NCBI GenBank assembly: GCA_024362935.1
Contig: JANCRA010000067.1
Span: 103,501 to 167,500, forward strand
DNA from: Setophaga petechia
Taxonomy: Eukaryota; Chordata; Aves; Passeriformes; Parulidae
Length of the DNA: 64,000 bases
Direction of reading: 5' to 3'
Part shown: positions 4,010 through 30,155 of the stretch, piece by piece
Layout: each line of letters opens with the position of its first letter
How positions within the stretch are numbered: the first letter of the stretch is position 1
Notes under the pieces: generated by a model
Told to the model about the DNA's origin: nothing
The model's input: only the letters and a program-made list of their open reading frames with translations
Databases searched by the model: none
Position numbers and translations under genes: made by a program

Positions 4010-5509
4010 CTGCAAACCATACTGTGAAGAAATGGGAAAAATCCATGGATTAATTTTGGACAAAATCCTGGAATTTTGTTGTTTTTTTAGTGCTTTTATC
4101 CCTAAAATTCAATCCTAAAAATCTGAATCCTTTAGGATTTGGAAAAAATCCCAGGATTTACCAAATTTCTGCTCAAAGTTGTGTTTCCCATGGAAAAAAA
4201 ATTCCATGGATTAATTTAGGACAAAAAATTGTAATTTGGGGTTTTTTAGTGCTTTTATCCTTAAAATTCAATCCTATGAAGCTGAATCCTTTAGGATTTG
4301 GAATAATTAATTTCTACGAGATTTTAAATTGATTTACATTTAAATAAGAAATAAAATTTGGGAGTGAATAAATGGAAAAAATTCTATGTATTAGTTTAGG
4401 AAAATCATGGAATTTTGGGGTTTTTTTAATGCTTTTATCCCTAAAATTCAATCCTAAAAAGGTGAATTTTTTAGGATTTGGAAAAAATCCCAGGACTTAC
4501 CAAACTTCTGCAGGAGATGCTAAAAATTGGATTTCCCATGAGAAAAAAAAATCCATGGATTAATTTAGGATAAAAACTTGGAATTTAGGGGTTTTTATGC
4601 CTTAAATTCAATCCTATGAAGCTGAATCCTTTAGGATTTGGAATAATTAATTTCTACGAGATTTTAAATTGATTTACATTTAAATAAGAAATAAAATTTG
4701 GGAGTGAATAAATGGAAAAAATTCTATGTATTAGTTTAGGAAAATTATGGAATTTTGGTTTTTTTTTAATGCTTTTATCCCTAAAATTCAATCCTAAAAA
4801 GGTGAATTCTTTAGGATTTGGAAAAAATCCCAGGACTTACCAAACTTCTGCAGGAGATGCTCAAAGTTGGATTTCCCATGGAAAAAAAAAAATCCATGGA
4901 ATAATTTAGGATAAAAACTTGGAATTTAGGGGTTTTTATGCCTTAAATTCAATCCTATGAAGCTGAATCCTTTAGGATTTGGAATAATTAAATTCTCCAA
5001 GATATTATAAATATTTAAATGTAAATTAAAAAAATTGGGAATGAATAAATGAAAAAAACCCACATATATGAGTTCAGGAAAATCTTCGAATTTTGGTTTT
5101 TTTTAGTGCTTTTATCCCTAAAATTCAGCCCTAAAATACTGAATTCTTTAGGATTTGGAAAAAATCCCAGGACTTACCAAACTTCTGCAGGAGATGCTCA
5201 AAGTTGGATTTCCCATGGAAAAAAAATCCATGGATTAATTTAGGATAAAAATTTGGAATTTCAGGTTTTTAAAGTGCTTTTATGCCTAAAATTCAATCCT
5301 GTAAAGCTGAATCCTTTAGGATTTGGAATAATTAATTTCTCCAAGATATTATAAATATTTAAATATAAGTTGAAAAAATTGTGAATAAGTAAATGAAAAA
5401 AACCCATATATTAGTTCAGGAAAATCTTAAAATTTTGGGTTTTTTAGTGCTTTTATCCCTAAAATTCAATCCTAAAAAGGTGAATTTTTTAGGATTTGGA
5501 AAAAAACCC
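4010..5509 (-). repeat. About 340-bp tandem repeat carrying copies of the JMJD4 exon end and splice donor
   Basis: The sequence CAGGACTTAC, which on the minus strand is the JMJD4 donor GTAAGTCCTG, occurs at the genuine exon edge (5510-5519) and again at 5168-5177, 4831-4840 and 4491-4500. A decayed copy with GTAAAT is at 4152-4161. Spacing is 337-342 bp. In the better copies about 35 bp of exon sequence beside the donor (ACCAAACTTCTGCAGGAGAT and on through CTCAAAGTTGG) is also retained. The unit therefore spans exon end, donor and following intron, and extends in the JMJD4 downstream direction. Confidence 0.9.
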
Positions 5510-5519
5510 CAGGACTTAC

Positions 5520-5778
5520 CAAACTTCTGCAGGAGATGCTCAAAGTTGGGTTTCCCATCCCACGTCACCCAGTTTTTCCTGCTGCCCCAATCCTCAGTGA
5601 ATTTGGCTGAGAAGATGCAGGGATGGTTGGGAATGAGATAATCCCGGAAAAAATCGGAATAAGTGAAGGAATCGACTTTGTCAATAAAATCCACGTGGCC
5701 CCCGGGGAGAGCACCCGGAGAAGAATTCCCAAAATCCCGGAAAAAAGCAGTGGAACAGGCAAAGGTTGCTCTGTCCAT
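5520..5778 (-). CDS. JMJD4: JMJD4, first coding exon (N-terminal 86 residues)
   Basis: This exon encodes the start of JmjC domain-containing protein 4, a 2-oxoglutarate- and iron-dependent oxygenase known from mammals to hydroxylate a lysine of the translation release factor eRF1. The frame opens at an ATG (5776-5778, minus strand) with MDRA and includes blocks typical of the family N-terminus: FTYSDFFRDYLIPNHPCIFS, then DWGSRKNWVTWDGKPNFEHL. It ends in phase 1 at TTTG|GTAAGT, with the donor at 5519-5514. The JmjC fold and its iron-binding His and Asp residues are encoded in later exons left of the window. A plausible acceptor (AATTTTTTCCAG) sits 5 bp upstream of the ATG at 5784-5785, which implies an upstream noncoding exon, probably in the CpG island at 8.2-8.5 kb. 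The start context is weak at -3 but has G at +4. No break is seen. Identification is by remembered family similarity. Confidence 0.9.
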
Positions 5779-6300
5779 GCAGGCTGGAAAAAATTCCTGG
5801 CTGAGCCAAGGAATTTGGCAAAATAATCCCAAAAAAAAATCCCGGCTAAAAATGGGATTTGAGGATTTAAAAGTGTGGAAAATCATGGGGAAATTGAGAG
5901 GGGATAAGTGTTGGGATAATTTGGGTTTTCCATTTTTTGGGATAGCTGGGAAATGGAGGTTTTTTATGGATGTTTTTTCCTCTTGTCAGAGATGCTTCTG
6001 TCCTAAAAAGCAGGAAAAGAAAATTTCAGTGGGATATTTCAAAGGAAATAATGAATTGAAGGGGTGGAGGGAAAGAAATTCCTGAGATATTTGGGAATGC
6101 TCTGGGATCATCCCTTTGTTCCCAGGTCTGGCACCTCCCACTTCCCACAGAGTTTTCCCCGAGGATTTGGAGCAATTGAAGGATAAAAACAGGGAAAAAA
6201 TGGGAAAAACATTAAAAATAAAGAGGGAAGGGGAAGGCTGAGCATAAAGGGAATAAAGCAAAGAGGCTGCAGGGATGGGATTTGGGAAGCACTGAGGGAA
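5779..6300. other. Unique sequence between the JMJD4 start exon and the 60-bp array
   Basis: This is probably the JMJD4 5' intron. Apart from the acceptor-like tract just upstream of the start codon I see no exon, repeat or mobile element. Short open frames here are shadows or chance. Confidence 0.5.
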
Positions 6301-6304
6301 AAGG

Positions 6305-8200
6305 GGATTTAGGGATCTCCATGAGGGAATTCCTCCATCACAGAGCTCCAAAGGAATATTGGGATTAAGGAACGTCCATGAAGGAATTTTCCCTCATGGA
6401 GCTCCAAGGGAATATGGAATTAAGAGCCATCCATGAGGGAATTTTTCCTGACAGAACTCCAAAAAAATATCAGGATTAAGGGACATCCATGAGGGAATTC
6501 CTCCCTCAGAGGTCTCCAAGGGAACACAGGGATTAAGGGAAATCCATGAGGAAATTTTTCCTCACAGAGCTCCAAGGAAATATCGGGATTAAGGGACATA
6601 CATGAGGGAATTCCTCTCTCACAGAGTGCCAAGGGAATATTGAAATTAAGGAATATCCATGAGGGAATTCTTCCCTCAGAGATCTCCAAGGGAACACCAG
6701 AATTAAGGAACATCCATGAGGAAATTTTCCCTCACAGAGCTCCAAGAAAATATTGGAATTAAGGGACATCCATGAAGGAATTCCTCTCTCAGAGATCTCC
6801 ATGGGAACACCAGGATATGACAGTGGGATAAAATGATTTCCATGAGGGAATTCTCCCCTCACAGAGCTCCAAGGGAATATTGGAATGAAGGGACATCCAT
6901 GAGGGAATTCCTCTCTCAGAGATCTCCATGGGAGCACCAGGATTAAGGGACATCCATGAGGGAATTTTACCTCAGAGATCTCCAAGGGAATATCAAAATT
7001 AAGGAACATCCATGAAGGACTTCTTCCCTCACAGAAGATGTCCGAGGGAATATTGAAATTAAGGGAAATCCATGGGGGAATTCCTCCCTCATGGAACTCC
7101 AAAGAAACACTGGGATGTCACAGTGGGAATAAAGAATTTCCATGCAGAAATTCCTCCCTCAGAGATCTCCAAGGGAATATGGAAATTATGGGACGTCAAT
7201 GAGGGAATTTTCTCTTTCACAGATCTCCAAAGGATATGGCAGTGGGATTAAAGGATTTCCATGAGGGAATTTCTCTCTCAGAGATCTCTAAGGGAACACC
7301 GGGATTAAGGAACATCCATGAGGGAATTCCTCCCTCACAGAGCACCAAGGGAATATCGAAACTAAGGAACCTCCATGAGGAAATTTTCCCTCAGAGATCT
7401 CCAAGAGAATATTGGAATGAAGGAAAATGCAGGAGGGAATTCCTCCCTTACAGAGCTCCAAGGGATATGGCAGTGGGATTAAAGGATTTCCATGAGGGAA
7501 TTCCCCCCTCAGAGATCTCCAAGGGAACACCAGGATTAAGGCACATCCATGCAGGAATTCCCCCCTCAGAGATCTCCAAGAGAATATAGGAATTAAAGGA
7601 AATCCATGAGGGAATTCCTCCCTCGTGGAGCTCCAAGGAAACACTGGGATATCACAGTGGGAATAAAGGATTTCCATGTGGGAATTCCTCCCTCAGAAAT
7701 CTCCAAGGGAACACTGGGATTAAGGGAAAACCATGAGGAAATTTCCCCCTCACAGATCTCCAAGAGAATGTCAGAATTATGGGACATCCATGAGGGAATT
7801 CCTCCCTCACAAATCTCCAAGGGAACACCGGGATTATGGAATCTCCATTAGGGAATTCCCCCCTCACAGATCTCCAAGGGAATGTCAGAATAATGGGACA
7901 TCCTTGAGAGAATTCCTCCCTCAGGGAGCTCCAAAGAAACACAGGAATATGGCAGTGGAATTAAAGGATTTCCATGAGGGAATTCCCCCTTCACAGAGCT
8001 CCACGGGAATATGAGAATTATGGGACATCATAAGGGAATTCCTCCGTCACACATCCCCAAGGGAATATCAGAATTATGGGACATCCATGAGGGATGTGCT
8101 AAGGGAACACTGGGATTAAGGAACCTCCATGAGGGAATTCCCCCTCAGAGATCTCCATGGGAACACCGGGATTAGGGAACCTCCATGAGGGAATTCCCCC
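6305..8200. repeat. About 60-bp minisatellite, roughly 30 copies, next to the promoter
   Basis: The unit runs CCATGAGGGAATTCCTCCCT, then CACAGAGCTCCAAGGGAATA, then a TTGGGATTAAGGGACAT type ending. It fills the space between the JMJD4 start exon and the CpG island. On the minus strand many units carry CTCTGTGAGGGAGGAATTCC, which contains a donor-like GTGAGG. Overlapping open frames of up to 189 codons on both strands come from the lack of stops in the unit. Confidence 0.95.
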
Positions 8201-8203
8201 CAC

Positions 8204-8450
8204 GGCCATCCCCAGTGTTGGGGGGAGGACCCGGACACCACAGGGCGTCGCACACGCCATCCCCGCCCCGCTCTCCTGTCCCATCCGCACCGCAGCTGCC
8301 CGCAGGAATCAGGAGCACCCCGAGGGGAGCTACACTCACCCCCGCTGCCCTCGGGGCAGCCCCGCGGCGCGAATCGCGGCGTCGGCGGCGACAATGAAAG
8401 GCTATGGCGGGCGCTGCCGGAACCTCTGCGTCGGGCGGGTGGGGGCCGGG
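8204..8450 (-). other. JMJD4: Candidate JMJD4 noncoding first exon
   Basis: The coding exon at 5520-5778 has an acceptor upstream of its ATG, so a 5' noncoding exon is expected in the CpG island. A minus-strand GT at 8203-8202 (GATGGCC|GTGGGG) is one possible donor, at the island edge where the 60-bp array starts. Other GTs in the island are equally possible; both ends are guesses. Confidence 0.25.
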
Positions 8451-8539
8451 GGGGAGGTGAAAAGCGGAGCGCAGCGGCGCGGGGCTCAGCCAATAGGAAC
8501 GCTCAGATGCGCGGGGCTCAGCCAATGAGAGCGCGCGGA

Positions 8540-8580
8540 GGGCGCAGGCGCGGAGCGGGGCCGGTGCCGCACTGAGGGAG
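8540..8580 (+). other. SNAP47: SNAP47 probable noncoding first exon (3' end fixed by donor)
   Basis: Just downstream of the second CCAAT box a GC-rich stretch ends in ACTGAGGGAG|GTGCGT, a reasonable splice donor at 8581-8586. Position and orientation fit the first exon of SNAP47, transcribed rightwards. The 5' end is arbitrary; no coding potential is claimed. Confidence 0.5.
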
Positions 8581-8584
8581 GTGC

Positions 8585-9835
8585 GTGGGGAGCCGGGGGG
8601 GCTCGGACGGGCCTGGGGGGCTGCAAATGGGGCGGGAGGCGCTGGACGTGGGGCTTGGGGTTGGAAATGGGGCCGGGAGAGTCACAAACTGGGGTCTGGG
8701 GAGTCACAAACTGGGGTCTGGGGAGTCACAAACTGGGGTCTGGGGAGTCACAAACTGGGGTCTGGGAGGGGCTCTGATCCATGGCCGCAGTGGTCTCGGA
8801 CCGGGACAGGGAGGTCCGGATGGGGCTGGAGGGACTCGAAATGGCGCGGGAGGGGCTCCAAATGGGGCGGGAGGGGTCGAGGTGGAGTTTGGGGATGAAA
8901 ATGGGACTGGGACGACAAAAATTGAGGGTTGGGGGGACTCCGATCCATGGCCGTGGTGGTGTCTGACTGGGACCGGGGGTTCCGGGTGGGCCCGGAGAGA
9001 CTCAAAGTGGGGTGGGAGAGGCTCGAGGTGGAGCTTGGGGTTGGAAATGGGGCTCGGAGGGTCACAAATTTGGGACTGGAGGGGCTCCGGGGAGGGAATT
9101 TGGGGACTGGAGAGGCTCCGATCCATTGCCGCAGTGGTCTCGGACCGGGACAGGGAGGTCCGGATGGGGCTGGAGGGGCTCCAAATGGGGTTTGAGGTTG
9201 AAATTGGGGCTGGGACGACAAAAATTGAGCGTTGGGGGGACTCGGATCCGTGGCCGCGGTGGACTTGGACCGGGACAGGGAGGGTCCGGATGGGGCTGGA
9301 CGGACTCGAAGTGGGACGGGAGGAGCTCGAGGTGGAGCTTGGGGTTGGAAATGGGGCTCGGAGGGTCACAAACTGTGGCTCGGGAGGGTTCCCGACAGAG
9401 AATGAGGGGCTCCCATCCATTGCCGCGGTGGTGTCGGACCGGGGGGGTCTGGATGGGGCTGGGAGGGCTCGAAATGGGGCGGGAGGGGCTGGAGGTGGAG
9501 ACGGATTGAAAATGGGGCTGGGGGAATCACAGCTTGGGGGGGCTCCACTCCATGGGCTTGGGACGGGAGTGTCCGGATGAGGCTGGAGAGATTCGAAACG
9601 AGCTGGGAAGGCTCGAGGTGGAGTTTGGGGTTGAAAACGGGGCTGGGAGAGTCACAAATTTGGGCTTTGGGGGGCTCAGGTTTGTGATCGCTGTGGTCTC
9701 GGGCCGGGACAGGGGGTCCTGCATGGGGCGGGAGGGACTGGAATTGGCTCCCAGTGGGGTGGGAAGGGCTCGAGGTGGAGCTTGGGGTTGGAAATGGGGC
9801 TTGGGGGGGCTCCGATCCATGGTCGGTGTGTTGGA
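8585..9835. repeat. G-rich minisatellite and higher-order repeat in SNAP47 intron 1
   Basis: Related units such as GGTGGAGCTTGGGGTTGGAA, GGATGGGGCTGGAGGGGCTC and TGGTCTCGGACCGGGACAGG recur in blocks of roughly 290 bp. A pure subarray at about 8690-8770 repeats GGGGAGTCACAAACTGGGGTCT four times (22 bp). The plus strand is strongly G-rich with many runs of three or more Gs, immediately after the probable SNAP47 start. Open frames of up to 331 codons here are stop-free repeat, not genes. Confidence 0.9.
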
Positions 9836-9839
9836 CCGG

Positions 9840-9955
9840 GACCGGGGGTTTTGTGTCGGGGCTTGGGGCGGGTTTTGTGCCGGGGCTTGGGGCGGGTTTT
9901 GTGTCGGGTTTTCTGTCGGGGCTTGGGGCGGGGCTTGGCGTGGGCTCGAACGGGG
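9840..9955. repeat. Short GT/GC-rich tandem repeat
   Basis: A phrase of the type GGGTTTTGTGTCGGGGCTTG is repeated about four to five times with length variation. It continues the G-rich character of the preceding array. Confidence 0.8.
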
Positions 9956-10254
9956 CTGAGGCGGTTCCACAGCGGGAACCGGCGAGCGACGGCGGCTCCG
10001 AGAGCGGGCCGGGAATGGAGGGGCTCGGGATGGGGCTGGAGAAGCTCCTGGAATTGGATCCTGGGCTGAGCTGGCACCGAGGGAAGGCTCGGGATGGGCT
10101 GGGGGCAGAGCTGGGGTTTGGAGAGGGGAGTGATGGACAGGGAAGGGATCAGGGCGAGGGACTGGGGGAGATCCAGTAAATTCCTGGGTAACTGTAGGAG
10201 TGAAGGGGTGGGACTGTGGGGATGGACAGAGAGGAGAGATCTCTGCAGCCAGGG

Positions 10255-10960
10255 CTTGGGATGTGGGGTTTATTGCAAAGGGCCCGGGTGCAGGGCCCTG
10301 CTGGGATTTGGGGTTTATTGCAAAGGGTGCAGGGCCCTGCTGGGATTTGGGGTTTATTGCAAAGGGCCTGGGTGCAGGGCCCTGCTGGGATTTGGGGTTC
10401 ATTGCAAAGGGCCTGGGTGCAGGGCCCTGCTGGGATTTGGGGTTTATTGCAAAGGGCCCTGCTGGGATTTGGGGTTTATTGCAAAGGGCCTGGGTGCAGG
10501 GCCTGCTGGGATTTGGGGTTTATTGCAAAGGGCCTGGGTGCAGGGCCCTGCTGGGATTTGGGGTTTATTGCAAAGGGCCTGGGTGCAGGGCCCTGCTGGG
10601 ATTTGGGGTTTATTGCAAAGGGCCTGGGTGCAGGGCCCTGCTGGGATTTGGGGTTTATTGCAAAGGGCCCTGCTGGGATTTGGGGTTTATTGCAAAGGGC
10701 CTGAGTGCAGGGCCCTGCTGGGATTTGGGATTTATTTGTGAAGGGTCTGGGTGCAGGGGCCTTTTGGGGTTTATTGCAAAGGGCCTGGGTGCAGGGGCCT
10801 TTTGGAACTTGGGATTTATTGCAAAGGGTGCAGGGGCCTTTTGGGATTTGGGGTTTATTTGTGAAGGGCCTAAGTGCAGGGGCCTTTGGGATTTGGGGTT
10901 CATTGCAAAGGGCTCTGCTGGGATTTGGGGTTTATTGCAAAGGGCCCTGCTGGGAGCTGC
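10255..10960. repeat. About 45-bp minisatellite, roughly 16 copies
   Basis: The unit contains GGTTTATTGCAAAGGGCCTG, then GGTGCAGGGCCCTGCTGGGA, then TTTGG. Some copies lack the GGTGCAG segment, giving units near 28 bp. All three plus frames are open for long stretches because the unit has no stop. Confidence 0.95.
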
Positions 10961-11341
10961 CAGGCACAGCTTGGAGCAGGCCCAGGAGGAGAGGGGTAGA
11001 GAGGGTGAGACAGAGAGAGTAAAAGAGGATGAGTGAGTGAGGTTCCTGTGACAACACAATAAATCTTCTGTGTTGAATATTTTAATTCTCACCAATCTAA
11101 TACAAGCTACAAATCCTACAGCATTTACATACAGCCTGTAAGAATCATGACATGACCACGTTATTTTCTTTGAGCCAGGTCTGATGAGCTCTAGGAGGTC
11201 TGAAACACCCCCAAGGTAGCTCAGCTCCCTTTGGAAGCAGGAAAATCAGCAGGATGGCTTCTGTTGCAGTGTTGGAAACAAAAAGGTTCAATAAAAGGCA
11301 AAATAACAAACAGAAAAAATGAGCCAGGTGCCAGAGGTTCT
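10961..11341. other. Unique sequence before the solo LTR
   Basis: Non-repetitive sequence in SNAP47 intron 1. I recognise no exon or element here. Confidence 0.4.
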
Positions 11342-11722
11342 TGTGTGACTGTGTTCACAGGGGTCTGAGGATGAGGGAAGAGATGAGGATCTGACTCCAT
11401 GGTTCAGAAGCTTTGATTTATTATTTTATGATTTATATTATATAAAACTGTACTAAAAGAATAGAAGAAAGGATTTCATCAGAAGGCTGGCAAGGAATAG
11501 CAAAGGAATGATAATAAAGGTTTGTGTCTCAGGCTCTCTGTCTGAGCCAGCTGACTGTGATTGGCCATTAATTAGCAACAACCACATGAGACCAATCCCA
11601 GATGCACCTGTTGCATTCCACAGCAGCAGATAATCAATGTTTACATTTTGTTCCTGAGGCCTCTCAGCTTCTCAGGAGGAAAAATCCTAAGGAAAGGATT
11701 TTCATAAAAGAATTCTGTGACA
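11342..11722 (-). mobile_element. Solo LTR of a songbird endogenous retrovirus
   Basis: The block starts TGTGACTG on the plus strand and ends CTGTGACA, so on the minus strand it reads TG...CA with the short inverted ends TGTCACAG and CAGTCACA. I recognise the internal sequence as a repeat common in passerine genomes; the exact family name would need a repeat library. No internal retroviral genes are present, so it is a solo LTR left by recombination. A clear target-site duplication was not found. Confidence 0.8.
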
Positions 11723-12009
11723 CACATTTCTCCATTGCCACACTGTGTTACATTTTAAACCCTAAAATCTCCTCTTTGGGCCCTTCTGCCAAGCTGCTCT
11801 GCCCCCTGGAGCTGCCTGCAAGCTGAGGGTGTTGTTTTATCAAAAGGAGATTTTACCTTCAGCCAGCCACACCATTGTTTTCCAGTTGTTCAGCAACTGA
11901 GGGATCTCAAAACTTTTATTTCAATTTCACTTACAGCATCCATATTCTCAAAATGTTTTTCCAGGCAATCATGTTTATCATTTTCCTGTTCCATCTTCCC
12001 CAGCAGATC

Positions 12010-12270
12010 AGGCTGAGTTTTGTGGGAATGCTGAGGGAGCTGGGAATGCTCAGCCTGGAGGAAAAGAGGCTCAGGAGGAATTTTTGGGCTCTGGCTCTGC
12101 TCCCAGGGAACAGGGACGGGAGGAGAGGGAGATTTTGGTTGGATATTGGGAAAATTCCTTCATGGAAATGTCCAAGGTCAGCTTGGATCCACCTGGGAGA
12201 GTGGAGGATCCATGAATGGGATCATCCTTGAGGTCCCTCCCAGCCCAAACCCTTGGAATTCTCTGCTCCA
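12010..12270 (+). mobile_element. CR1 LINE 3' fragment (diverged)
   Basis: Phrases typical of the avian CR1 3' end are present in order: GCTCAGCCTGGAGGAAAAGA, TTTTGGTTGGATATTGGG, TCCAAGGTCAGCTTGGATCC, and ATCATCCTTGAGGTCCCTCC. The copy is 5'-truncated and its tail runs into a duplicated segment. Confidence 0.75.
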
Positions 12271-12930
12271 TTATTGGGGTGGGGAGGAGGAAAACTCCTG
12301 GAAAAAAGGAAAAGGAAAGGATGGGAATTCTTGGCAGGAGGGAGGAATTCCAGCTTGGGGTGAGGAAGCAGAAATGAGGCTTGGGAATGAAGGAATGAGG
12401 TCAGGCCTGGAGGCTTCACAGCTTGGAAAATCCTAAATTTGGAATTTGTGGATTTATTAATCCTGGAATTGAGTCTTAATTAAAAAAAAGGGAGAGTGAG
12501 TGGATAGGATTTATAAAGTCATTTACTGATTGTGGCTCCCAGGAGATTGAAGCTCAACATTTCCCAAATTTGTTTCTGGGATTAAACCACCCTGTGGAAT
12601 TCTCAGCAGAGGATTTGTTTTATCAACAGGAGGATCCATGAATGGGATCATCCTTAAGGTCCCTCCCAACCCAAACTGTTGGAATTCTCTGCTCCATTTT
12701 TGGGGTGAGGAAAACTCCTGGAAAAAGGAAAGGAAAGGTTGGGAATCCTTGGCAGGAGGGAGGAATTCCAGCTGGGGGTGAGGAAGCAGAAGTGAGGTCA
12801 GGCCTGGAGGCTTCGCAGCTTGGAAAATCCTAAATTTGGTATTTGTGGATTTATTAATCCTGGAATTGAATTAATTTAAAAAGCAGGATAGGATTTATAA
12901 ACTCATTTATAAACTGATTGTGGCTCCCAG
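12195..12930. repeat. Two-copy tandem duplication, about 430 bp
   Basis: The segment GAGGATCCATGAATGGGATC to the AT-rich stretch near 12480 reappears at about 12630-12900, including GGTCAGGCCTGGAGGCTTC and AAATCCTAAATTTGG. The second copy has small deletions. The duplication includes the CR1 tail. Confidence 0.85.
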
Positions 12931-13224
12931 GAGTTTAAGGTCAGCATTTCCCAGATTGAATTCTGGGATTGAACCACCCTGTGGAATTCTCAGCCTTGCA
13001 GGAGGAGAGAAAATAACCAATAAAAGGTACAGGAATGTTCTGGCCACCATTCCCAAAAATTCTGGGAATGAAATGTTGGTGGGAACATCACCCAGGGATG
13101 GTGCCAGCTCCTCCTCCTAATTAGCTAATTAGTAATGCTCCTGCTTAATTGGGTGATGTCACCAGAGGTGAATCAGCTCCTTTTTATGGAAGCAGCCTCT
13201 GGGTTTTTTTTTCCAGGAAAAAAA

Positions 13225-14430: not shown

Positions 14431-14850
14431 AAAAAAAGGATTTAATTTTCAATTGGATATTTTCTTGGGGGGGAAAAAAGGATTTAATTCCCAGCTGGAT
14501 TTTTTTCCTTGGGGAAAAAAGGATTTAATTCCCAATTGGTTTTTTCCTTGGAATAAAAAAAAAGGATTTAAATCCCAGCTGGATTTTTCCTTGGAATAAG
14601 GATTTTATTCCCAGCTGGATTTTTCCTTGGAAAAATGGGATTTAATTCCCAACTGGATTTTTCCCTGGAAAAGAAAAAGGATTTAAATCCCAGCTGGATT
14701 TGTCCTTGGAGTAAAAAAAAAGGATTTAATTCTCAATTGGATTTTTCCTTGGAAAACCAAAAAGGATTTCATTCCCAAATGGATTTTTCCTTGAAAAAGT
14801 AAAACGAATTTAATTTCCAACTGGATTTTTCCTTGGAAAAATGGGATTTC
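14430..14850. repeat. About 50-bp minisatellite, roughly nine copies
   Basis: The unit is GGATTTAATTCCCAGCTGGA followed by TTTTTCCTTGGAAAAA with variable A runs. It ends shortly before a GC-rich unique stretch (14860-14950). Confidence 0.9.
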
Positions 14851-14974: not shown

Positions 14975-16170
14975 GGAATTCTCATTTTGGGAACAGCCTC
15001 TGTTGTGTTTTCCTTTCGTTTGGAGTTTGTTTGTTTTAAAACTTGAAGAGAAAAAAAATCCCTGAGGGGAAAAATTTGTCCCTGAGGGGATAAAATGCTG
15101 CTGGAGAGTAACATGGATCCAAATCCAGGTAAGAAACTTGGGATAAGAATCAGGAAGTGCTTCTTGGAATTTATAATTAGAAATAAATCCTTGATTTTTT
15201 AAGGAATTTTTATTTTGGGAACAGCCTCAGTTGTATTTTCATTTGGAAATTGTTCCCTGCTGGAAACTTGAAAAACCCTGAGGGAGAAAATTCCTCCCTC
15301 AAAATTTCGTGGATCCAAATCCAGGTAAGAAACTTGGGATAACAATCAGGGAGAGCTTATTTTAATTTATTATTGAATAAATACATTGTATTTTAAGGAA
15401 TTCTCATTTTGGGAACAGCCTCAGTTATATTTTCATTTGGAAATTGTTCCCTGCTGGAAACTTGAAAAACCCTGAGGGAGAAAATTCCTCCCTCAAAATT
15501 TCATGGATCCAAATCCAGGTAAGAAACTTGGGATAACAATCAGGAAGAGCTTATTTTAATTTATTATTGAATAAATACATTGTATTTTAAGGAATTCTCA
15601 TTTTGGGAACAGCCTCAGTTTTATTTTCCTTGGAATTTTTTTCCTTGGTGAAAACTTGGTAAAAAATTCCTGAGAATTCCATGGATCCAAATTCAGGTAA
15701 GAAACTTGGGATAACCCTCAAGAAGAGCTTATTTTAATTTATTATTGAATAAATAATTGAATAAATCCATTGTATTTTAAGGAATTTTCATTTTGAGAAT
15801 GACCTCTGTTGAATTTTCCTTTGGAATTTATTCCCTGTTGAAAACTTGGAAAACCTGAGGGAGAAAATTCCTCCCTGAAAATTCCATGGATGCAAATCCA
15901 GATAAGAAACTTGGGTTAAGGATCAAGAAGAGCTTATTTTAATTGATAATTAGAAATAAGTCCTTGATTTTTTAAGGAATTTTCATTTTGGGAACAGCCT
16001 CAGTTGAATTTTCCTTTGGAATTTTTTTCCTTTGAAAACTTGGGAAAAAATTCCTGAAAATTCCATGGATCCAAATCCAGGTAAGAAACTTAGGATAACA
16101 ATCAGGAAGAGCTTATTTTAATTAATTATTGAATAAATAATTGAATAAATCCATTGTATTTTAAGGAATT
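14975..16170 (+). repeat. About 190-bp tandem repeat carrying six copies of the start-exon donor
   Basis: The sequence GGATCCAAATCCAGGTAAGA occurs near 15116, 15310 and 15507, with near-identical versions near 15685 (AAATTCAGGTAAGA), 15890 (donor mutated to GATAAG) and 16065. Each unit also carries GGAATTCTCATTTTGGGAAC, CCCTGAGGGAG and TTATTTTAATTTATTATTGA. The first copy is the putative start exon; the others extend into the intron downstream of it. Copy 2 has GTG in place of the ATG. Confidence 0.9.
15095..15128 (+). CDS. SNAP47: SNAP47 probable start exon (coding part)
   Basis: Two in-frame ATGs, at 15095 (MLLESN) and 15113 (MDPNP, better context with A at -3 and G at +4), precede a strong donor CCAG|GTAAGA (15129-15134). 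An in-frame TGA at 15083 closes the frame upstream. The exon ends in phase 1. Joined to the acceptor at 18264-18265, the final G plus TG makes a valine and the frame runs without a stop through 59 nt of exon 2 into the conserved MNEDIRIHSWPC start. Human SNAP47 also has an in-frame N-terminal extension encoded upstream of the equivalent methionine. The exon's 5' edge is not fixed; a pyrimidine-rich tract near 15000-15020 is a possible acceptor. It is the first copy of a tandem repeat. If it is not used, translation would start at 18325. Confidence 0.55.
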
Positions 16171-16590
16171 TTTTTTCCATTTATTCTCTAAAATTAATAA
16201 TGAAAAAAAGTTCTTAAGAATCCATGGAAATAAGGGATGGAAACCAAATAAAGGATTTTTTTGGGATATAGCATGGACTAATCCTTATCTTAATTATATG
16301 GGAATATTGAATGTATTGAATTAAAATAATTAAAATAATTAAACTTAAAAGGATTTATTTAAAATAATAATTAAAATTATTTAACTTAAAATTTTTTATT
16401 AAAAACAATGGATGAATTCCCAGTGATGTCATCAGCATTCCCAAATTAATTATGGGATGGAAACAGGCCTGGGTGCTGGAAACCACAGCCATGAGGAAGA
16501 AATTCCAGGAAATTCCAAACCTTGACTCCAAGAAACTTCTGGAAGGGTGGAGAGAAACCATTCCAGGGGTGGGATTGCCCATTCCAAAGT
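16171..16590. other. AT-rich unique intron sequence
   Basis: It lies between two arrays in the SNAP47 5' intron. AAATAATTAAAATTATT-type low complexity is present around 16320-16400. No exon or element was recognised. Confidence 0.5.
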
Positions 16591-17719: not shown

Positions 17720-18140
17720 ATGAGCTGGAATTTTGGGATATTGTGGATTTTCCTCAGTTCATGTTGATCTGTGGGAAGCTGAGGATGAGCTGGGATGGGA
17801 ATATTCCAGGATATGGATGAAATTATTGGGAAAATGCCTGGCCAGTGATGTTGATGGGGTTTTCCAGAGGAAATCTGGAATTTTGGGATATCTGGGATTT
17901 TCCTCAGTGCCTGTTGGTCTGTGGGAAGCTGAGTTGAGATAGGAATGGGAATATTCCAGGATATGAATGGAATTATTAGTGAAATGCATGGCCATGGATG
18001 TTGACAGCTCTTTCCAGAGGAAATCTGGAATTTTGGGATATTGTAGATTTTCCTCAGTGCCTGTTGGTCTGTGGGAAGCTGAGTTGAGATAGGAATGGGA
18101 ATATTCCAGGATATGAATGGAATTATTGAGAAAATGCATG
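17720..18140. repeat. About 150-bp tandem repeat, three copies
   Basis: Each copy holds AAATCTGGAATTTTGGGATA, TTTTCCTCAGTGCCTGTTGG, TCTGTGGGAAGCTGAG and GAATATTCCAGGATATGAAT. It ends about 130 bp before the SNAP47 exon 2 acceptor. Confidence 0.9.
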
Positions 18141-18265: not shown

Positions 18266-18818
18266 TGTCTCCCTCTGGGTTGGAGAGCGTTTCCCTGGGA
18301 GAGGAGGCCGGGCAGAGCGAGCTGATGAACGAGGACATCCGGATCCATTCCTGGCCTTGCTCCTACTACCTGGACACCAGCAAACAATGGATCCCTGGGA
18401 AGCTCTCCCTGACTCCCACCTCCATCAAATTCACAGCTGACAAAACGGGAGAGCTCCTGGTGGATTTCCATCTTTCCGCGATCGGCGAGATCAAGAAGGA
18501 ATCTTCCCATTTGATCTTCAGCTCCCTCACCATCCTGGAGAAAGGCACCAAGCACTGGTTCAGCTCCCTGCATCCCAACAGGAATGTGGTGTTCAACATC
18601 CTGGAGCATTTCTGGAGGGAGCAGCTGGTGTCCAGCCAGGAGGCCGGAGCGGGAGCGGCCTTGGAATCCAGCAAGGGCAAGGAATTGACGGGAATGTTGG
18701 AGGGATCCCAGAAACGCCTGGAGGACACGGCCAAGGTGCTCCATTCCCAGGGGGAGCAGTTTGACAACATCATGAGGGGACTCCACAAGATCGAGGGGGA
18801 CATGGATGTGGCTGACAG
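18266..18818 (+). CDS. SNAP47: SNAP47 exon 2: PH-like N-terminus and first SNARE helix
   Basis: SNAP47 is a SNAP-25-family Qb,Qc-SNARE found mainly on intracellular membranes and at synapses, where it takes part in vesicle fusion. The acceptor is a T-rich tract ending TTTTAG (18265); the donor is GACAG|GTTTGG. The conserved methionine (MNEDIRIHSW) is at 18325; the preceding 59 nt are open in frame with the start exon at 15095-15128. Numbered from 18325, residues 1-100 contain the PH-like region (TSIKFTADKTGELLVDFHLS, then SSLTILEKGTKHWFSSLHPN). From about 117 comes the first SNARE helix (GKELTGMLEGSQKRLEDTAK), with the likely zero-layer glutamine at 142 (HSQGEQFDNI). The exon ends in phase 2 inside VADR. 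The human protein shares the same order and splice point. No frameshift is seen. Its donor, unlike those of the other internal exons, is not followed by donor copies. Confidence 0.95.
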
Positions 18819-20930: not shown

Positions 20931-21415
20931 GCTGTTAACAGAGCTGGAATCCCCCTCCTGGTGGCCCTTCAGCACCAAACTCTGGAAAACCCCAGTGGAA
21001 GCGAAACCCAAGGAAACCCCCGCGGCTCCAGATCCCAAAGCCCAGGAAGGAATCCTGCTGCGAATCCCCGTGATCATCACCCACAGGACAGACTCCAACG
21101 CCAAACCCGGCAAACTCACGGTGCTTCCCTCGGGCCTGGAGATCCAGGATTGCAATTCCCAGCTCCTGCACCGCTTCGAGGCGCGGGACGTGGACGACAT
21201 CCGCGTGCACACGCCCTACGAGATCAGCGTGCGGCAGAGGTTCATCGGCAAACCCGACACCTCCTTCCGCCTCCTGGCCGCGCGCATGCCCGAGGCCATC
21301 CCCATCCTGGAGATGCAGTTCAGCAAGAAAATCCAGTTCTTGGAGGATGCTCTGGGGTTTGCTGGAGCCAGGAAATCCCCTCAGGCGGATTTGGGGACGT
21401 CCATCTGGCAGGCAG
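20931..21415 (+). CDS. SNAP47: SNAP47 exon 3: central conserved domain
   Basis: The acceptor CTCTTCCAG ends at 20930; the exon joins in phase 2 to give R|LLTELES, completing the end of the first SNARE helix. It encodes residues 165-326 of the 415-residue core. SPSWWPFSTKLWKTP follows the helix, then the family-specific central region: EGILLRIPVIITHRTDSNAK, GKLTVLPSGLEIQDCNSQLL, DVDDIRVHTPYEISVRQRFI and MPEAIPILEMQFSKKIQFLE. No cysteine cluster for palmitoylation is present, as expected for SNAP47 and unlike SNAP-25. The exon ends TGGCAGGCAG|GTGGGT in phase 1. It is GC-rich compared with the surrounding intron. The last 34 nt and the donor are copied four more times downstream. Confidence 0.96.
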
Positions 21416-22790
21416 GTGGGTGCCAGGCTCCAAGAGTTTTTCTAAGGAGTATTCTAATATCCAATATTCTGTAGCCAGTAATTAACACCCAATAATTGCT
21501 ATCCAATACCCAATGTATAATATCCAATATCCTATATCCAGTATCCAGTGTTTAATATCCAATATCCTGTATCCAAAGTTCGATATCAGGTGGATTTGGG
21601 GACGTCCATCTGGCAGGCAGGTGGGTGCCAGGGAATTCCAGGCTCCAAAAGTTTTTCCAAGGAATATTCCAGAGGTTATGGTGAGTGAGTCCACGATAAA
21701 TCAAATAAACTCCAGGTGGCTTCAGAGCCTTTTTCCTAGAGTTAATTCCCAGCTTAACCCCCAATAATTACTATCCAATACCCAATAATTAATATCCAGT
21801 ATCCCTTATTTAATATCCAATATTCAATAGCCAATAATGAGCACCCAATAATTGCTATCCAATAGCCAGTGACTAATATCCAGTATCCCTTATCTAATAT
21901 CCAGTATCCAATGTTTAATATCCAATATCCCATATCCAGTATCCAGTGTTTAATATCCAATATCCCATATCCAGTATCCAAAGTTCAATATCAGGTGGAT
22001 TTGGGAACGTCCGTCTGGCAGGCAGGTGGGTGCCAGGGAATGCCAGGCTCCAAAGGTTTTCCCAAGGAATATTCCAGAGGTATCTAATATCCAATATTCA
22101 GTAGCCAATAATTAAGACCCAATAATTGCTATCCAATACCCAATGATTAATATCCAGTATCCCTTATCTAATATCCAGTATCCAGTGTTTAATATCCAAT
22201 ATCCCATATCCAGTATCCAGTGTTTAATATCCAATATCCTGTATCCAATGTTCAATATCAGGTGGATTTGGGGACGTCCATCTGGCAGGCAGGTGGGTGC
22301 CAGGGAATTCCAGGCTCCAAAGGTTTTTCCAAAGAGTATTCCAGAGGTCATGGTGAGTGAGTCCATGATAAATCAAATAAACTCCAGGTGGCTTCAGAGC
22401 CTTTTTCCTAGACTTAATTCCCAGCTTAACAACCAATAATTGCTATCCAATACCCGATAATTAATATCCACTGTCCCTTATCTAATATCCAATATTCAGT
22501 AGCCAATAATGAGCACCCAATAATTATTATCCAATACCCAGTGATTAATATCCAGTATCCAGTGTTTAATATCCAATATCCCATATCCAGTATCCAGTGT
22601 TTAATATCCAATATCCCATATCCAGTATCCAGTGTTTAATATCCAATATCCCATATCCAGTATCCAGTGTTTAATATCCAATATCCAGTATACAAAGTTT
22701 AATATCAGATGGATTTGGGCATGTCCATCTGGCAGGCAGGTGGGTGCCAGGGAATTCCAGGCTCCAAAGGTTTTCCAAGGAATATTTCAG
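21416..22790 (+). repeat. Tandem copies of the SNAP47 exon 3 end with its splice donor
   Basis: The exon's last 34 nt (GGATTTGGGGACGTCCATCT, GGCAGGCAG) plus donor GTGGGTGCCAGG recur with the donor GT at 21621, 22026, 22293 and 22740, besides the genuine one at 21416. Each copy is followed by GGCTCCAAAGGTTTT and AAGGAATATTCCAGAGG, then by ATATCCAGT-type sequence. Copy spacing is 205, 405, 267 and 447 bp because the ATATCC filler varies. No acceptor or earlier exon 3 sequence is duplicated. Confidence 0.93.
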
Positions 22791-25700
22791 AGGCAAACTG
22801 GCCATGAGTCCATGGTGAGGATAAATTCCAGGAATAAACTCCAGGTGGCATCAGAGCCTTTGGCACTGCTGCTGCTTTTCCTGGAGTCAATTCCCAGCTG
22901 GAAGGGAATAGCCAATATTTAATAGCCAATAATTAACATCCAATAGTTACTATCCAATCCTCAATAGTTACTATCCAATAAATAATAACTAGTATTTAAT
23001 ATCCAGTATCCCTTATCTGGTAGTCAGTATTCAATATCCAATAGCCAGTATCCAATATTCCATATCCAAGGTTTAATATCCAACATCCCATATCTAACAT
23101 CTAATATTCAGTATCTCATATTTAATATCCCATATCCAAAACTTCATTTCTGGTATCTAGTATTTAATAATGGATATTCCATGTTCTGTATCCAGTATCC
23201 AGTGTTTAATATCCAATGCCCAATAATTACTATCCAATAATTAATACCCAGTATTTAATATCCAATAACCCATATCTGGTAGTCAATATTCAATAGCCAA
23301 TATCCAGTATCCAATATGTAATTTCCAATATCCCATATCCAACATCCAATATTCAATATCCCATATCCAATATCCAGTATTTAATATCCAATACCCAATA
23401 ATTACTATCCAGTAATTAATATCCAGTATTTAATATCCAATATCCCATATCTGATAGTCAGTATTCAATATCCAAAAGCCTCCGTCCAGTATTCCATATC
23501 CAATATTTAATATCCAATATCCCATATCCAATATTCAATATTCAGTATCCCATATTTAATATCCCATATCCAATATTCAGTATTTAATATCCAATACCCA
23601 ATAATTACTATCCAGTAATTAATATCCAGTATTTAATATCCAATATCCCATATCTGGTAGTCAATATTCAATAGCCAATATCCAGTATCCCATCTCCAGT
23701 ATCCAATATTTAATTTCCAATATCTCATATCCAACATTCAATATTCAATATCTCATATTTAATATCCCATATCCAATATCCAGTATTTAATATCCAATAC
23801 CCAATAATTACTATCCAGTAATTAATATCCAATATTTAATATCCAATATCCCATATCCAATATCCAGTATTCAATATTCAGTATCCCATATTTAATATCC
23901 CATATCCAATATTTGGTATTTAATATCCCATACCCAATAATTACTATCCAGTAATTAATATCCAGTATTTAATATCCAATATCCCATATCTGGTACCCAA
24001 TATTCAATATCCAATACCAATATCCTGTATTCCATATCCAATATTTAATATCCAATATCCCATATTCAATATTCAGTATCCCATATTTAATATCCCATAT
24101 CCAATATCCAGTATTTAATATCCCATACCCAGTAATTACTATCCAGTAATTAATATCCAGTATTTAATCTCCAATATCCCATATCTGATAGTCAATATTC
24201 AATATCCAAAAGCCTCCATCCAGTATTCCATATCCAGTATTTAATATCCAATATCCCATATCCAATATCCACTATTCAGTATCCCATATTTAACATCCCA
24301 TATCCAATATTCAGTATTTAATATCCAATACCCAATAATTACTATCCAGTAATTAATATCCAGTATTTAATATCCACTATCCCATATCTAGTAGTCAATA
24401 TTCAATATCCAATACCAATATCCTGTATTCCATATCCAATATTTAATATCCAATATCCCATAGCCAACATCTGATATTCTGTATCCATATTTAATATCCC
24501 ATATCCAATATTTCATATCTGGTATTCAGTATTTAATAATGGATATTCCATGTTCTATATCCAATGTTTAATTTCTAATATTCCATATCCAATATCCAGT
24601 ATTTAATATCTAATACCCAATAATTAATATCTGATAATTAATACCCAGTATTTAATATCCAATATCCCATATCCAGTAGTCAATATCCAATATTCAGTGT
24701 ATAATAGTCAATATTCCATAGTCAATGTTTAATATCCCATATCCAATATCCAATATTTAATATCTCACATCCTATTTCCAATATTCCATAACCAAGAATT
24801 AATATCCCATATCCAATATCCCATATCCCATATTCAATATCCAATATCTCATATCCCATGTCCAATATCCCATATCCAATATCCCATATTTAATATCCCA
24901 TGTCCAATATCCCATGTCCAATATCCCATATTCCATATCCCATATTCCATATAAATATCCAATATCCAATATCCAGTATTAAATATCTAATACCCAGTAA
25001 TTGATATCTGATAATTAATACCCAGTATTTAATATCCAATATCCCATATCCAGTAATCAATATCCAATATTCAGTGTATAATATTCAATATTCCATAGTC
25101 AATGTTTAATATCCCATATCCAATATTTAATATCTCACATCCTATTTCCAATATTTCATATTCAAGAATTCACATCCCATATCCAGTATCCCATATCCAA
25201 TATCCCATATCAAATATCCCATATCCCATATTCAATATCCCATATCCAGTATCCCATGTCCAATATCCCATATTCCATATCTCATATTCAATATCCCATA
25301 TCCCATATCAAATATCCCATGTCCAATATCCCATATCCAATATCCCATATCCAATATCAAATATCCCATATTCAATATCCCATATCCAATATCCCATGTC
25401 CAATATCCCATATCCAATGTCCCATATCCCATATTCAATGTCCCATGTCCAATATCCCATATCCCATATATCCCATATCCCATATATCCCATATCCCATA
25501 TATCCCATATCCCATATATCCCATATCCAATATCCAATATCCCATATCCAATATCCCATATCCAATATCCCATATTCAATATCCCATATCCCATATCCCA
25601 TATCCAATCTCCCATATCCCATATCCAATATCCCATATCCAATATCCCATATCCAATATCCCATATCCCATATCCCATATCCCATATCCCATATTCAATA

Positions 25701-26300
25701 TCCCATATCCCATCTCCCATATCCCATATCCAATATCCCATATCCAATATCCCATATCCCATATTCAATATCCCATATCCAATATCCAATATCCCATATC
25801 CCATATCCCATATTCCATATCCCATATCCCATATCCCATCTCCCATATCCCATATCCAATATCCCATATCCAATATCCCATATCCCATATTCAATATCCC
25901 ATGTCCCATATCCAATATCCCATATCCCATATCCCATATTCAATATCCCATATCCCATATCCCATATCCCATATCCCATATCCAATCTCCCATATCCCAT
26001 ATCCAATATCCCATATCCAATATCCAATATCCCATATCCCATATCCCATATTCAATATCCCATGTCCCATATCCAATATCCCATATCCCATATCTAATAT
26101 CCCATATCCAATATCGCATATTCAATATCCCATATCCCATATCCAATATCCCATATCCCATATCCAATATCCCATGTCCAATATCCCATATTCCATATCC
26201 CATATTCCATATCAAATATCCAATTTCCAATATCCAATATCCAAATATTTAATGTCCAATATCCCAATATTTAATATCCAATATCCCATATCCAATATTT
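21440..26300. repeat. Large ATATCCAATATCCCAT satellite in SNAP47 intron 3
   Basis: About 4.8 kb is built from short related words (ATATCCAAT, ATATCCCAT, ATCCAGTATTTA, AATAATTACTATCC). It is mixed with the exon 3-end copies up to about 22790, organised as blocks of roughly 230 bp from 23000 to 24700, and becomes a nearly pure ATATCCCATATCCAAT array from about 25100 to 26200. The pure part is stop-free in several frames on both strands, giving spurious ORFs of up to 370 codons (IPYPISHIQYPIS and WDMGYGILDMGY types). Confidence 0.96.
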
Positions 26301-28165
26301 ATATTAAACCTTTAATTCCCTTAAATCCTGAACACTTTCCCCAAACATCCATGAATCTTGAATTATAACATGGGATTAACCTGATTTTCCCATATTAAAA
26401 CCCCAGCATTTTGATATTAGACAAGTCCAGGTGTAGGAATTCCAGAGATTTTGGAATAATTAAAAAAAAATTTGGAGATTGAAAATTCCCAATGAGAAAA
26501 TTGACATTCTCTACTATTAATCCTAAAATTCCAGGATGGGTTTTTTATCCAAGCCTTGGAATTTTCAACAGCTTGGAATTTATTCCTCCCAACATCCCTA
26601 AATCTCTTTTTTTTCCTAATTTTTAATCCCAAAGGAGCAAAGAAAAGATGGATCCAGAGCCAAAAACACCTGGAAAATTGGGATAAATTCATAAATCCAC
26701 CAATTTCTGGTAGGAATTCCAGCAGGGAAGGGAATATCCTGGTTTTGAGGAATATTCCAGCTTGGAAAAACTGCTGGATTTTTAAGGAATTAAATTCTGG
26801 CCTCTGGAATTTCCTATTATCCCAAAAAATTTCCAATTTCTGACAGAATTCCAGGAAATAATTGGATCTCCAGCCCTTTTCCAGAGATTTTCCTGCTGGA
26901 TTTTCTTCTCCTTCCCTGGATAATTTAGAAAACCTTGGGAAGCAGAGGGGAGCTGATGGAAATCCTGATTTTCCAGGTTTTTTTTGTATTTTCCTTGGAT
27001 TTCTCACCGTTCCCATTCTGTCACAAGGTGGCACTCACGGACTGTGTGGGATCCTTTGGGATTTTTCCATAGAAAACTGATTTTTTTCCTTATTTTTTTT
27101 CTTATTTTTTTCCCTTTTTCTCAAATCTGGAGGGAAAAAAATTACTTTTTTCTGTTCCCCTGTCTGTGTTTTCCCAAAAGGAAATTGATCCAGGGATTTT
27201 TGGGATAAATATCCCTTCAGGGCATGGAAATCTCTGTGAAAATTCTGAATTTCCCTCAAAACTGCCACAATCCCACCTGGATCTTTTGTTTACACCAACC
27301 CTGCCCTCAGTTTATACCTAAATTTATAGAAATTCCAAAAAAAGTCCATTTTTGGCTTCATTCCGTGTAGAAAAAGGAATTTAGGGAATTATTTTTATCT
27401 AATACTTACTGCCTATTTTTATTTTAAAATTTCATTAATTATTTATTAATTTATTAATATTATTACTGTTATTTTTTCTGGATTTTTTTTAGCTGCTTTA
27501 CACTTTTTTTTCAGTGGTTTTTTTTTTTTGGGATAAACATTGAAATTTTGGAACAGCTTTGATCCAATTTTATCCCAAAAAACAGCTGAGAGTTCCTGTG
27601 AATCCCCTCATTCCAAATGATCCTGTTTTCCAAAGGCTCTCTAAATAAGAAATTTTTTAAAAAATTAAAAAAAAAAACCCAAATTTTAAAAAAATAATTA
27701 TTTAAAAAAGAAAATAAAGGAACATAAATAACATAAAAATAAAATAAAGATAAAATGACAAAACATAAGCAAAATGAAATAAAATTTAGAAAAAATAAAA
27801 TGAAAGAGATAGAAATAAGGAGAAAATTAGAAAAATAAAAAAATGAAAATTTTTAAAAAAAATTTTAGAAATGAGAAAAATAAAGAGAAATTGGAAGGAA
27901 TACAGTTTGAATATTCCCAGAAAACCAGAATTTAATGGGAAAAATTGGATTTTGAGCATTCCCAAATTCCCATGGAGCAAAGCACAGCCCAACCTCTTTG
28001 ATCCCAGAATTCCGGAACGATCCTTGAGGGTTCCGCGAGCGGCAGTTCCGTTATCCCAAATTACCCTTGGACATTCCCAGGATTCTCCAGCTTCTCTGGG
28101 AATTCCTGGAGCTTCCTCTTCTTCCCAAGCAGGAATTTTTCCTTAATGTGGAATTTCTCTGGCAG
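26301..28165. other. Rest of SNAP47 intron 3
   Basis: Mostly unique AT-rich sequence. An A-rich low-complexity tract (AAAATAAAATAAAG type) covers about 27640-27900. No exon other than exon 4 at its end is evident. The exon 4 acceptor is GAATTTCTCTGGCAG. Confidence 0.5.
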
Positions 28166-28287
28166 CCACGGGATTCCTGGGAGCCGCGGTGAATCCCGGA
28201 ATGCCGGCGGGAAGCGCCGAAGGGCCGGACAAGGAGCAGGTGCAGCTGCAGAAAATATCCCAGGAGGAAGCCAAGGAGCTCCGCCAG
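28166..28287 (+). CDS. SNAP47: SNAP47 exon 4: linker and start of second SNARE helix
   Basis: The exon joins in phase 1 to exon 3 to give WQA|ATGFLG, matching the WHAASGLMG-type junction of the human protein. It encodes residues 327-367: a variable linker (VNPGMPAGSAEGPDKEQVQL) followed by the start of the second SNARE helix (QKISQEEAKELRQ). It ends in phase 0 at CGCCAG|GTAAAA. The next exon begins ILRKLKG, so the exon boundary falls inside the SNARE helix, as in human. The donor is also the first unit of the 36-bp array that follows, and the exon's frame stays open into that array as far as 28467. Use of a later donor would add 12 residues per unit within the helix. Confidence 0.94.
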
Positions 28288-30155
28288 GTAAAAATGGGGC
28301 TGGAATTCCACAGAGTCCACCAGGTAAAAATGGGGATGGAATTCCTCAGACTCCGCCAGGTAAAAATGGGGATGGAATTCCACAGATTCCGCCAGATAAA
28401 AATGGGGATGGAATTCCACAGACTCCAACAGGTAAAAATGGGGATGGAATTCCCCAGACTCAGGTAAAAATGGGGATGGAATTCCACAGAGTCCAACAGG
28501 TAAAAATGGGGATGGAATTCCACAGACTGTGCCAGGTAAAAATGGGGATGGAATTCCACAGAGTCCGCCAGGTAAAAATGGGGATGGAATTCCACAGACT
28601 GTGCCAGGTAAAAATGGGGATGGAATTCCACAGACTCCAACAGGTAAAAATGGGGATGGAATTCCACAGATTCCAACAGGTGAAAATGGGGATGGAATTC
28701 CACAGATTCCAACAGGTGAAAATGGGGATGGAATTCCACAGACTCAGGTAAAAATGGGGATGGCATTCCACAGACTCTGCCAGGTAAAAATGGGGATGGA
28801 ATTCCACAGAGTCCGACAGGTAAAAATTGGGATGGAATTCCACAGACTCTGACGGGTAAAAATGGGGATGGAATTCCACAGACTCTGCCAGGTAAAAATG
28901 GGGATGGAATTCCACAGACTCAGGTAAAAATGGGGATGGAATTCCACAGAGTCCACCAGGTAAAAATGGGGATGGAATTCCACAGACTCCAACGAGTAAA
29001 AATGGGGATGGAATTCCACAGACTCTGACAGATAAAAATGGGGATGGAATTCCACAGAGTCCAACAGGTAAAAATGGGGATGGAATTCCACAGACTCCGC
29101 CAGGTAACAATGGGGATGGAATTCCACAGAGTCCAACAGGTAAAAATGGGGATGGAATTCCATAGACTCTGAGAGGTAAAAATGGGGATGGAATTCCACA
29201 GAGTCCAACAGGTAAAAATGGGGATGGAATTCCACAGAGTACAACAGGTAAAAATGGGGATGGAATTCCACAGAGTCCAACAGGTAAAAATGGGGATGGA
29301 ATTCCTCAGACTCCAACAGGTAAAAATGGGGATGGAATTCCACAGAGTCCAACAGGTAAAAATGGGGATGGAATTCCACAGACTCAGGTAAAAATGGGGA
29401 TGGAATTCCACAGACTGTGCCAGGTAAAAATGGGGATGGAATTCCACAGACTCTGCCAGGTAAAAATGGGGATGGAATTCCTCAGACTCCAACCGGTAAA
29501 AATGGGGATGGAATTCCACAGATTCCACCAGGTAAAAATGGGGATGGAATTCCACAGATTCTGCCAGGTAAAAATGGGGATGGAATTCCACAGACTCATG
29601 TAAAAATGGGGATGGAATTCCACAGAGTCCACCAGGTAAAAACGGGGATGGAATTCCACAGACTCTGCCAGGTAAAAATGGGGATGGAATTCCACAGAGT
29701 CCAACAGGTAAAAATGGGGATGGAATTCCACAGACTCTGCCAGGTAAAAATGGGGATGGAATTCCACAGAGTCCAACAGGTAAAAATGGGGATGGAATTC
29801 CACAGACTCAGGTAAAAATGGGGATGGAATTCCACAGAGTCCAACAGGTAAAAATGGGGATGGAATTCCACAGAGTCCAACAGGTAAAAATGGGGATGGA
29901 ATTCCACAGACTCTGCCAGGTAAAAATGGGGATGGAATTCCACAGAGTCCAACAGGTAAAAATGGGGATGGAATTCCACAGACTCAGGTAAAAATGGGGA
30001 TGGAATTCCACAGAGTCCGCCAGGTAAAAATGGGGATGGAATTCCACAGAGTCCAACAGGTAAAAATGGGGATGGAATTCCACAGACTACAACAGGTAAA
30101 AATGGGGATGGAGTTCCACAGACTACAAGAGGTAAAAATGGGGATGGAATTGCAC
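28288..30155 (+). repeat. 36-bp array of about 50 splice-donor copies after SNAP47 exon 4
   Basis: The unit is CAGGTAAAAATGGGGATGGA followed by ATTCCACAGACTCTGC (36 bp). A 32-bp variant lacking about four bases after CAGACT recurs at intervals (near 28460, 28742, 28918, 29384, 29808, 29982), suggesting higher-order blocks. Nearly every unit keeps CAG|GTAAAA, identical to the genuine exon 4 donor; a few are broken (for example AGATAAAA at 28395, TGAAAA near 28680). Long open frames on both strands are stop-free repeat. Confidence 0.97.

Follow-up and report, generated by a model that had tools for sequence, protein, structure and literature searches.

The window analysed here is a stretch of 64,000 nucleotides from the songbird Setophaga petechia (C67:103501-167500, C67 being the 3.17-Mb contig JANCRA010000067.1 of a 1.22-Gb assembly with 687 contigs). 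It carries SNAP47 on the plus strand and the first exon of JMJD4 on the minus strand, and at four splice donors of these two genes the tail of the exon together with the donor forms the first unit of a tandem array that runs into the intron. We rebuilt both genes. The five coding exons of SNAP47 join into an uninterrupted frame of 446 residues: exon 1 (coding part MLLESNMDPNP, 15095-15128, donor CAG/GTAAGA; positions without a contig prefix are those of the window), exon 2 (18266-18818, CAG/GTTTGG), exon 3 (20931-21415, CAG/GTGGGT), exon 4 (28166-28287, CAG/GTAAAA) and exon 5, the last coding exon (32511-32657). JMJD4 has six exons, five of them outside the window, which encode 425 residues in a full open frame; the coding exon 1 occupies 5520-5778 and ends at base 5520 with the donor TTG/GTAAGT. 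The least certain junctions, 15128 and 5520, are supported by the zebra finch SNAP47 protein (P0002), whose N-terminus corresponds to the open frame of exon 1, and by the Melozone JMJD4 protein (P0125), which continues HLLQKFG/EAVVPV, respectively. At the SNAP47 exon 3-4 and 4-5 junctions, bird proteins continue across as spliced here. A Pfam search gave one match below its cut-off for SNAP47 (DUF5089) and none for JMJD4 exon 1. In the PDB, SNAP47 had weak matches to SNAREs, and JMJD4 exon 1 had no useful match.

The JMJD4 array (4024-5560, minus strand) is built of units of about 340 bp (342, 337, 340 and 339 bp, followed by a partial unit of 179 bp), each composed of about 40 bp of the exon 1 tail, the donor and intron. 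Further donor copies lie at 5178, 4841, 4501 and 4162, with 39-41 bp of exon sequence in copies 1-3 and fewer in copy 4. The array at SNAP47 exon 1 (15112-16172, plus strand) has six units (196, 194, 178, 205 and 179 bp and a partial one of 109 bp), so that the full units span 178-205 bp; they place donor copies at 15324, 15518, 15696, 15901 (where the GT is lost) and 16080, and 15-17 bp of the exon are copied. The array at SNAP47 exon 3 (21381-22787, plus strand; the right limit was set by hand) is irregular. It contains five occurrences of the junction including the exon's own, with spacings of 205, 405, 267 and 447 bp, and the copies at 21620, 22025, 22292 and 22739 carry 29-35 bp of exon each. 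The array at SNAP47 exon 4 (28279-30158, plus strand) consists of 53 units of 36 or 32 bp (45 and 7 spacings, respectively). Its GT is kept in 50 of the 52 intronic copies and CAGGTAAAA is exact in 41 of them. The unbroken match to the exon is 3 bp in 27 of the 52 intronic units and never exceeds 9 bp (2/52), and the exon part in this array is therefore slight. Between units of the JMJD4 and SNAP47 exon 1 arrays, the intron parts are 74-96% identical, and the first units of the four arrays show no match to one another (blastn, E 0.01). The sequence-only reading of this DNA had described the junctions at 5520, 15128, 21415 and 28287 as starting points of local, mutually unrelated arrays that leave a usable donor beside the exon, and this observation is confirmed at all four.

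The same reading regarded chance as an improbable explanation of this placement and pointed out that every array extends downstream and that none sits on an internal acceptor. Within the window, arrays indeed lie on four of the five donors and on none of the four internal acceptors; exon 2 of SNAP47 has both its donor and its acceptor outside any array. Random placement of the arrays, allowing a 40-bp reach into exons, yields P = 4.5e-4 for at least four of five donors, with array limits that were partly set by hand. However, the contrast between donors and acceptors is weak. The same placement test expects no acceptor out of four to be hit 65% of the time, and the one-sided Fisher P of 0.04 (0.07 with a possible alternative first exon included) was calculated on the very arrays that gave rise to the hypothesis. 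The polarity is uninformative: once an array takes in an exon edge, the intron is the only side on which it can grow, and from a donor it is therefore forced to run downstream.

Held-out DNA was taken from 194 kb around the window in the same genome (C67:1-104000 and C67:167001-257000, about 1 kb of which overlaps the window). There, we mapped 24 exons of ALS2CL, the neighbour of JMJD4 and SNAP47, on the plus strand at C67 19.9-87.9 kb; the start of exon 1 and the end of exon 18 are uncertain, and intron 7 may in fact be two introns, as one exon is missing from the map between exons 7 and 8. Together, ALS2CL (23 introns), JMJD4 (5) and SNAP47 (4) provide 32 introns, each of which was searched for copies spanning its own donor or its own acceptor junction with cut-offs from 30 to 60 bits. 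At every cut-off, junction copies were found at eight donors (JMJD4 intron 1; SNAP47 introns 1, 3 and 4; ALS2CL introns 1, 6, 8 and 15) and four acceptors (JMJD4 intron 4; ALS2CL introns 1, 8 and 21). When each junction was searched against five other introns instead, 160 trials produced no donor and no acceptor match of at least 30 bits, and a minus-strand control of the junction search produced no matches either. After removal of the claim-prompting arrays, i.e. SNAP47 and the JMJD4 intron 1 donor, the split was 4 of 27 donors versus 4 of 28 acceptors at every threshold. Thus, the enrichment of donors over acceptors that the sequence-only reading had expected is absent from the held-out junctions, and the lack of arrays on acceptors does not extend beyond the window.

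The acceptor arrays mirror those of the window, as all four of them run upstream. In JMJD4 intron 4, 11 copies, each composed of about 60 intron bases and 34-43 bases of exon 5, are spread over C67:92616-94616, entirely upstream of exon 5, and the AG is kept in 11 of 11. At the acceptor of ALS2CL intron 21, there are five copies, which contain 34-41 exon bases each and show 97-100% identity. The donor of ALS2CL intron 6 is spanned by an exact 185-bp tandem duplication (C67:33057-33426; 42 exon and 143 intron bp, no mismatch). By our reading of the alignment, its ends show no clear microhomology. This duplication is probably very recent and perhaps polymorphic, and it may resemble an early stage of array formation. 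ALS2CL intron 15 (C67:59171-65457) is 97% tandem repeat; it has 33 copies of the donor junction, and blocks in it recur about every 1.55-1.6 kb.

The whole region is rich in repeats. Tandem Repeats Finder coverage over C67:1-257000 is 17-92% per 10-kb bin, where some bins contain N and the last one is 7 kb long. In 3-kb samples further along the contig, taken at 400, 720 and 900 kb and at 1.5, 2.5 and 3.1 Mb, it is 23, 11, 3, 14, 8 and 0%, respectively, and six 3-kb samples from other contigs have 0-3%. This uneven fall, seen in small samples, suggests a repeat-rich chromosome end. In many birds, SNAP47 and JMJD4 orthologues are located on contigs 150-175 Mb long (152.5 Mb in zebra finch) and in others on shorter ones (58.6 Mb in Melozone). 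The large contigs argue against a dot chromosome, C67 itself being a 3.17-Mb piece with no chromosome assigned, and the songbird locus is probably located off the dot chromosomes.

Arrays of this kind were recently named exon stuttering in the chicken (Hron et al. 2026, Genome Biol Evol evag038, PMC12954441), where they were reported in 236 introns of 115 genes, 190 of these introns being on dot chromosomes. There, the copied edge is a splice donor or an acceptor, with medians of 36 exon bp and 4 copies, and intron length varies markedly among individuals; the main text, in which each of the words donor and acceptor appears a single time, gives no tally of the two sides (PMC12954441). Here as there, imperfect tandem copies of an exon edge and its splice site lie in the adjacent intron, and the exon itself is intact. 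In our case, the copies span the exon and intron sides of the donor, JMJD4 exon 1 and SNAP47 exons 1 and 3 each have copies of their edge, and the open SNAP47 and JMJD4 frames show that the coding exons are undamaged. The difference is in the setting, chicken and mostly dot chromosomes there, a songbird locus with orthologues on very large contigs here. The published screen required the exon copy to be 20 bp or longer and the bit score to be no lower than 42.1, which is a setting of that screen and not the definition of exon stuttering. This setting retains three copies at JMJD4 exon 1 and four at SNAP47 exon 3, one of which scores exactly 42.1, whereas SNAP47 exon 1 (17 bp) and SNAP47 exon 4 would be missed, as less than 20 bp of exon are copied in them.

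A similar arrangement exists in the human CBS gene. The 31-bp variable number tandem repeat c.1444_1467+7(16_21) at the boundary of exon 13 and intron 13 has 16-21 copies (PMC2630376, PMC5188458), and its unit, by name, comprises the last 24 exonic and first 7 intronic bases, so that each unit contains the donor. However, it is a single human locus whose sequence is unrelated to the window arrays. The CBS variant 844ins68 differs in being a single extra copy (PMC2630376); by position it lies at an acceptor junction, although the passage in that source refers to splice donor sites. Splice-site sequence is likewise involved in intron gain by tandem genomic duplication (PMC4974935), whereas here the introns already existed and none was newly formed.

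The most likely explanation, in which we have considerable confidence, is that the arrays are cases of avian exon stuttering, that is, tandem duplications in a repeat-rich region of which those overlapping an exon edge survive. Slippage, unequal exchange or repair would give rise to such duplications, tens to hundreds of bases long, which would then expand in most introns of the locus. If a unit reaches across the boundary between exon and intron, the copy next to the exon would keep both the exon and its splice site, the mRNA would be unchanged and the duplication could persist, whereas duplications within exons would be eliminated by selection. Subsequent growth and homogenisation would be possible on the intron side alone, which accounts for the downstream direction from a donor and the upstream direction from an acceptor. 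Of the causes offered by the sequence-only reading, selection that tolerates expansions fits best, and its interpretation as a whole is partly supported. The arrays are real, ordinary for their newly described kind and not donor-specific. With them, the phenomenon described in chicken is seen in a songbird as well, at a locus that related birds have on a large chromosome. New in this respect are the location, which is probably not on a dot chromosome, the extent of the decoy arrays and the two-sidedness within one gene and one gene cluster, with a polarity that is explained without a donor-specific mechanism.

About 50 donor copies in one intron and 11 acceptor copies in another must be passed over during splicing, most simply by exon definition pairing the splice sites nearest each exon. 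We calculated the coding consequences of replacing the exon-proximal site by a copy for SNAP47 exons 1, 3 and 4 and JMJD4 exons 1 and 5. An early stop would follow for 4 of 4 copies at JMJD4 exon 1, 4 of 4 at SNAP47 exon 3, 5 of 5 at SNAP47 exon 1 (one of which is GT-less), 48 of 52 at SNAP47 exon 4 and 11 of 11 at the JMJD4 exon 5 acceptor. As the copies mostly lead to early stops, the exon-proximal site must normally be used in RNA, as far as can be judged from the reading frames. The 53 successive donor-bearing units and the 11 acceptors with the same upstream sequence are ready-made tests of splice-site choice.

Initiation specific to donors, for instance by slippage or breakage at 5' splice sites through R-loops or stalled transcription with arrays growing downstream, would account for the window tally, and over all 32 introns the donor count is still double the acceptor count. 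This excess is compatible with an even split (binomial P = 0.39), the held-out junctions show none, and acceptors in JMJD4 and ALS2CL carry arrays as well. In addition, PHF8 intron 18, showcased by Hron et al., is said to derive partly from exon 19, by numbering the acceptor side (PMC12954441). Because held-out acceptors are spanned as often as donors, mechanisms tied to donors are not needed; we reject donor specificity and consider this initiation very unlikely. A somewhat better case exists for exon edges of both kinds as preferred starting points, for example owing to changes in composition or chromatin there. Placement was simulated with Tandem Repeats Finder rows of period at least 15 and score at least 100 and seven junction-derived arrays added by hand. 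With a 40-bp reach, 12 junctions are spanned in the 32 introns versus about 4.6 expected (P = 0.0008), and eight versus about 3.9 in the held-out set (P = 0.03). However, the total is inflated by the discovery arrays, the placement null is crude, and the held-out excess depends on the allowed reach, with P = 0.0003 at 20 bp and P = 0.16, i.e. no excess, at 60 bp. A modest preference of arrays for exon edges may therefore exist, and it weighs against simple survival of edge-straddling duplications, as do the doubled donor count, the origin of all introns in a single stretch of about 116 kb in one assembly, and the dependence of the ALS2CL exon map on a human query sequence. The identity of ALS2CL is backed by collinear exons, GT/AG borders, long open frames and Pfam matches to MORN and VPS9, whereas a third piece had no match in the Pfam search. 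On balance, we think that an edge preference is improbable as the main cause. The wider proposition that tandem duplication in repeat-unstable bird DNA nucleates preferentially at both kinds of exon edge, and that a macrochromosome end can act like a dot chromosome, is similarly doubtful. If it is true, each intron with an edge array is a natural test of exon definition, in which some 50 surplus donors or 11 surplus acceptors must be ignored.

The donor copies could also be maintained by selection as U1-binding decoys or for regulated splicing. The high retention of GT in SNAP47 intron 4 would fit, and so would the four exon 4 copies, three of them with an intact GT, that would insert 12-residue repeats in frame. 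In a comparison of variability between units, the donor positions of the other three arrays pooled are slightly less variable than the intron part (P = 0.06), but those of the 53-unit array are more variable than the 20 columns after them (P = 0.02). Across the four arrays there is hence no consistent extra conservation of donor motifs. Furthermore, 120 of the 455 SNAP47 proteins found were listed and the pattern of the exon 4-5 junction was matched in 37 of them, none of which has an insert at this junction, the other 83 being uninformative. We regard maintained copies as almost certainly the wrong explanation. An assembly artefact, in which repeats were collapsed or expanded, could be argued from nearly identical 1038-bp blocks near window 1-3000. 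The units of the arrays differ from one another, unlike a simple misjoin, and raw nanopore reads verified comparable intron structure according to Hron et al. (PMC12954441), so we give an artefact very little weight.

The 1038-bp blocks lie at window 1-2976, inside a 152-bp-period array of JMJD4 intron 1. Blocks 1-1038 and 1039-2076 are 100% identical, and the next one is 99.9% identical over 900 bases; they would be explained either by higher-order amplification in the very recent past or by expansion in the assembly. At SNAP47 exon 4, the donor copies at 28323, 28359 and 28431 would lengthen the frame by 12, 24 and 48 residues, respectively, in the form of VKMGLEFHRVHQ-like repeats ahead of the last coding exon. 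A 48-bp-unit array at 31349-32477 ends 33 bp before the SNAP47 exon 5 acceptor and spares the pyrimidine-rich stretch. Further along C67, at 706-934 kb, there are WNT-family exons, which from the gene order in other vertebrates we take to be WNT9A and WNT3A. The 150-bp array at 17725-18140 in SNAP47 intron 1 looks, by eye, as if it were translated in the predicted barn swallow protein P0096; it may be common to several species and may have misled the gene prediction. Lastly, the GC-rich open stretch at 8176-8400 resembles by eye the N-terminus of the Aphelocoma SNAP47 isoform P0004, which suggests a putative alternative first exon of SNAP47.

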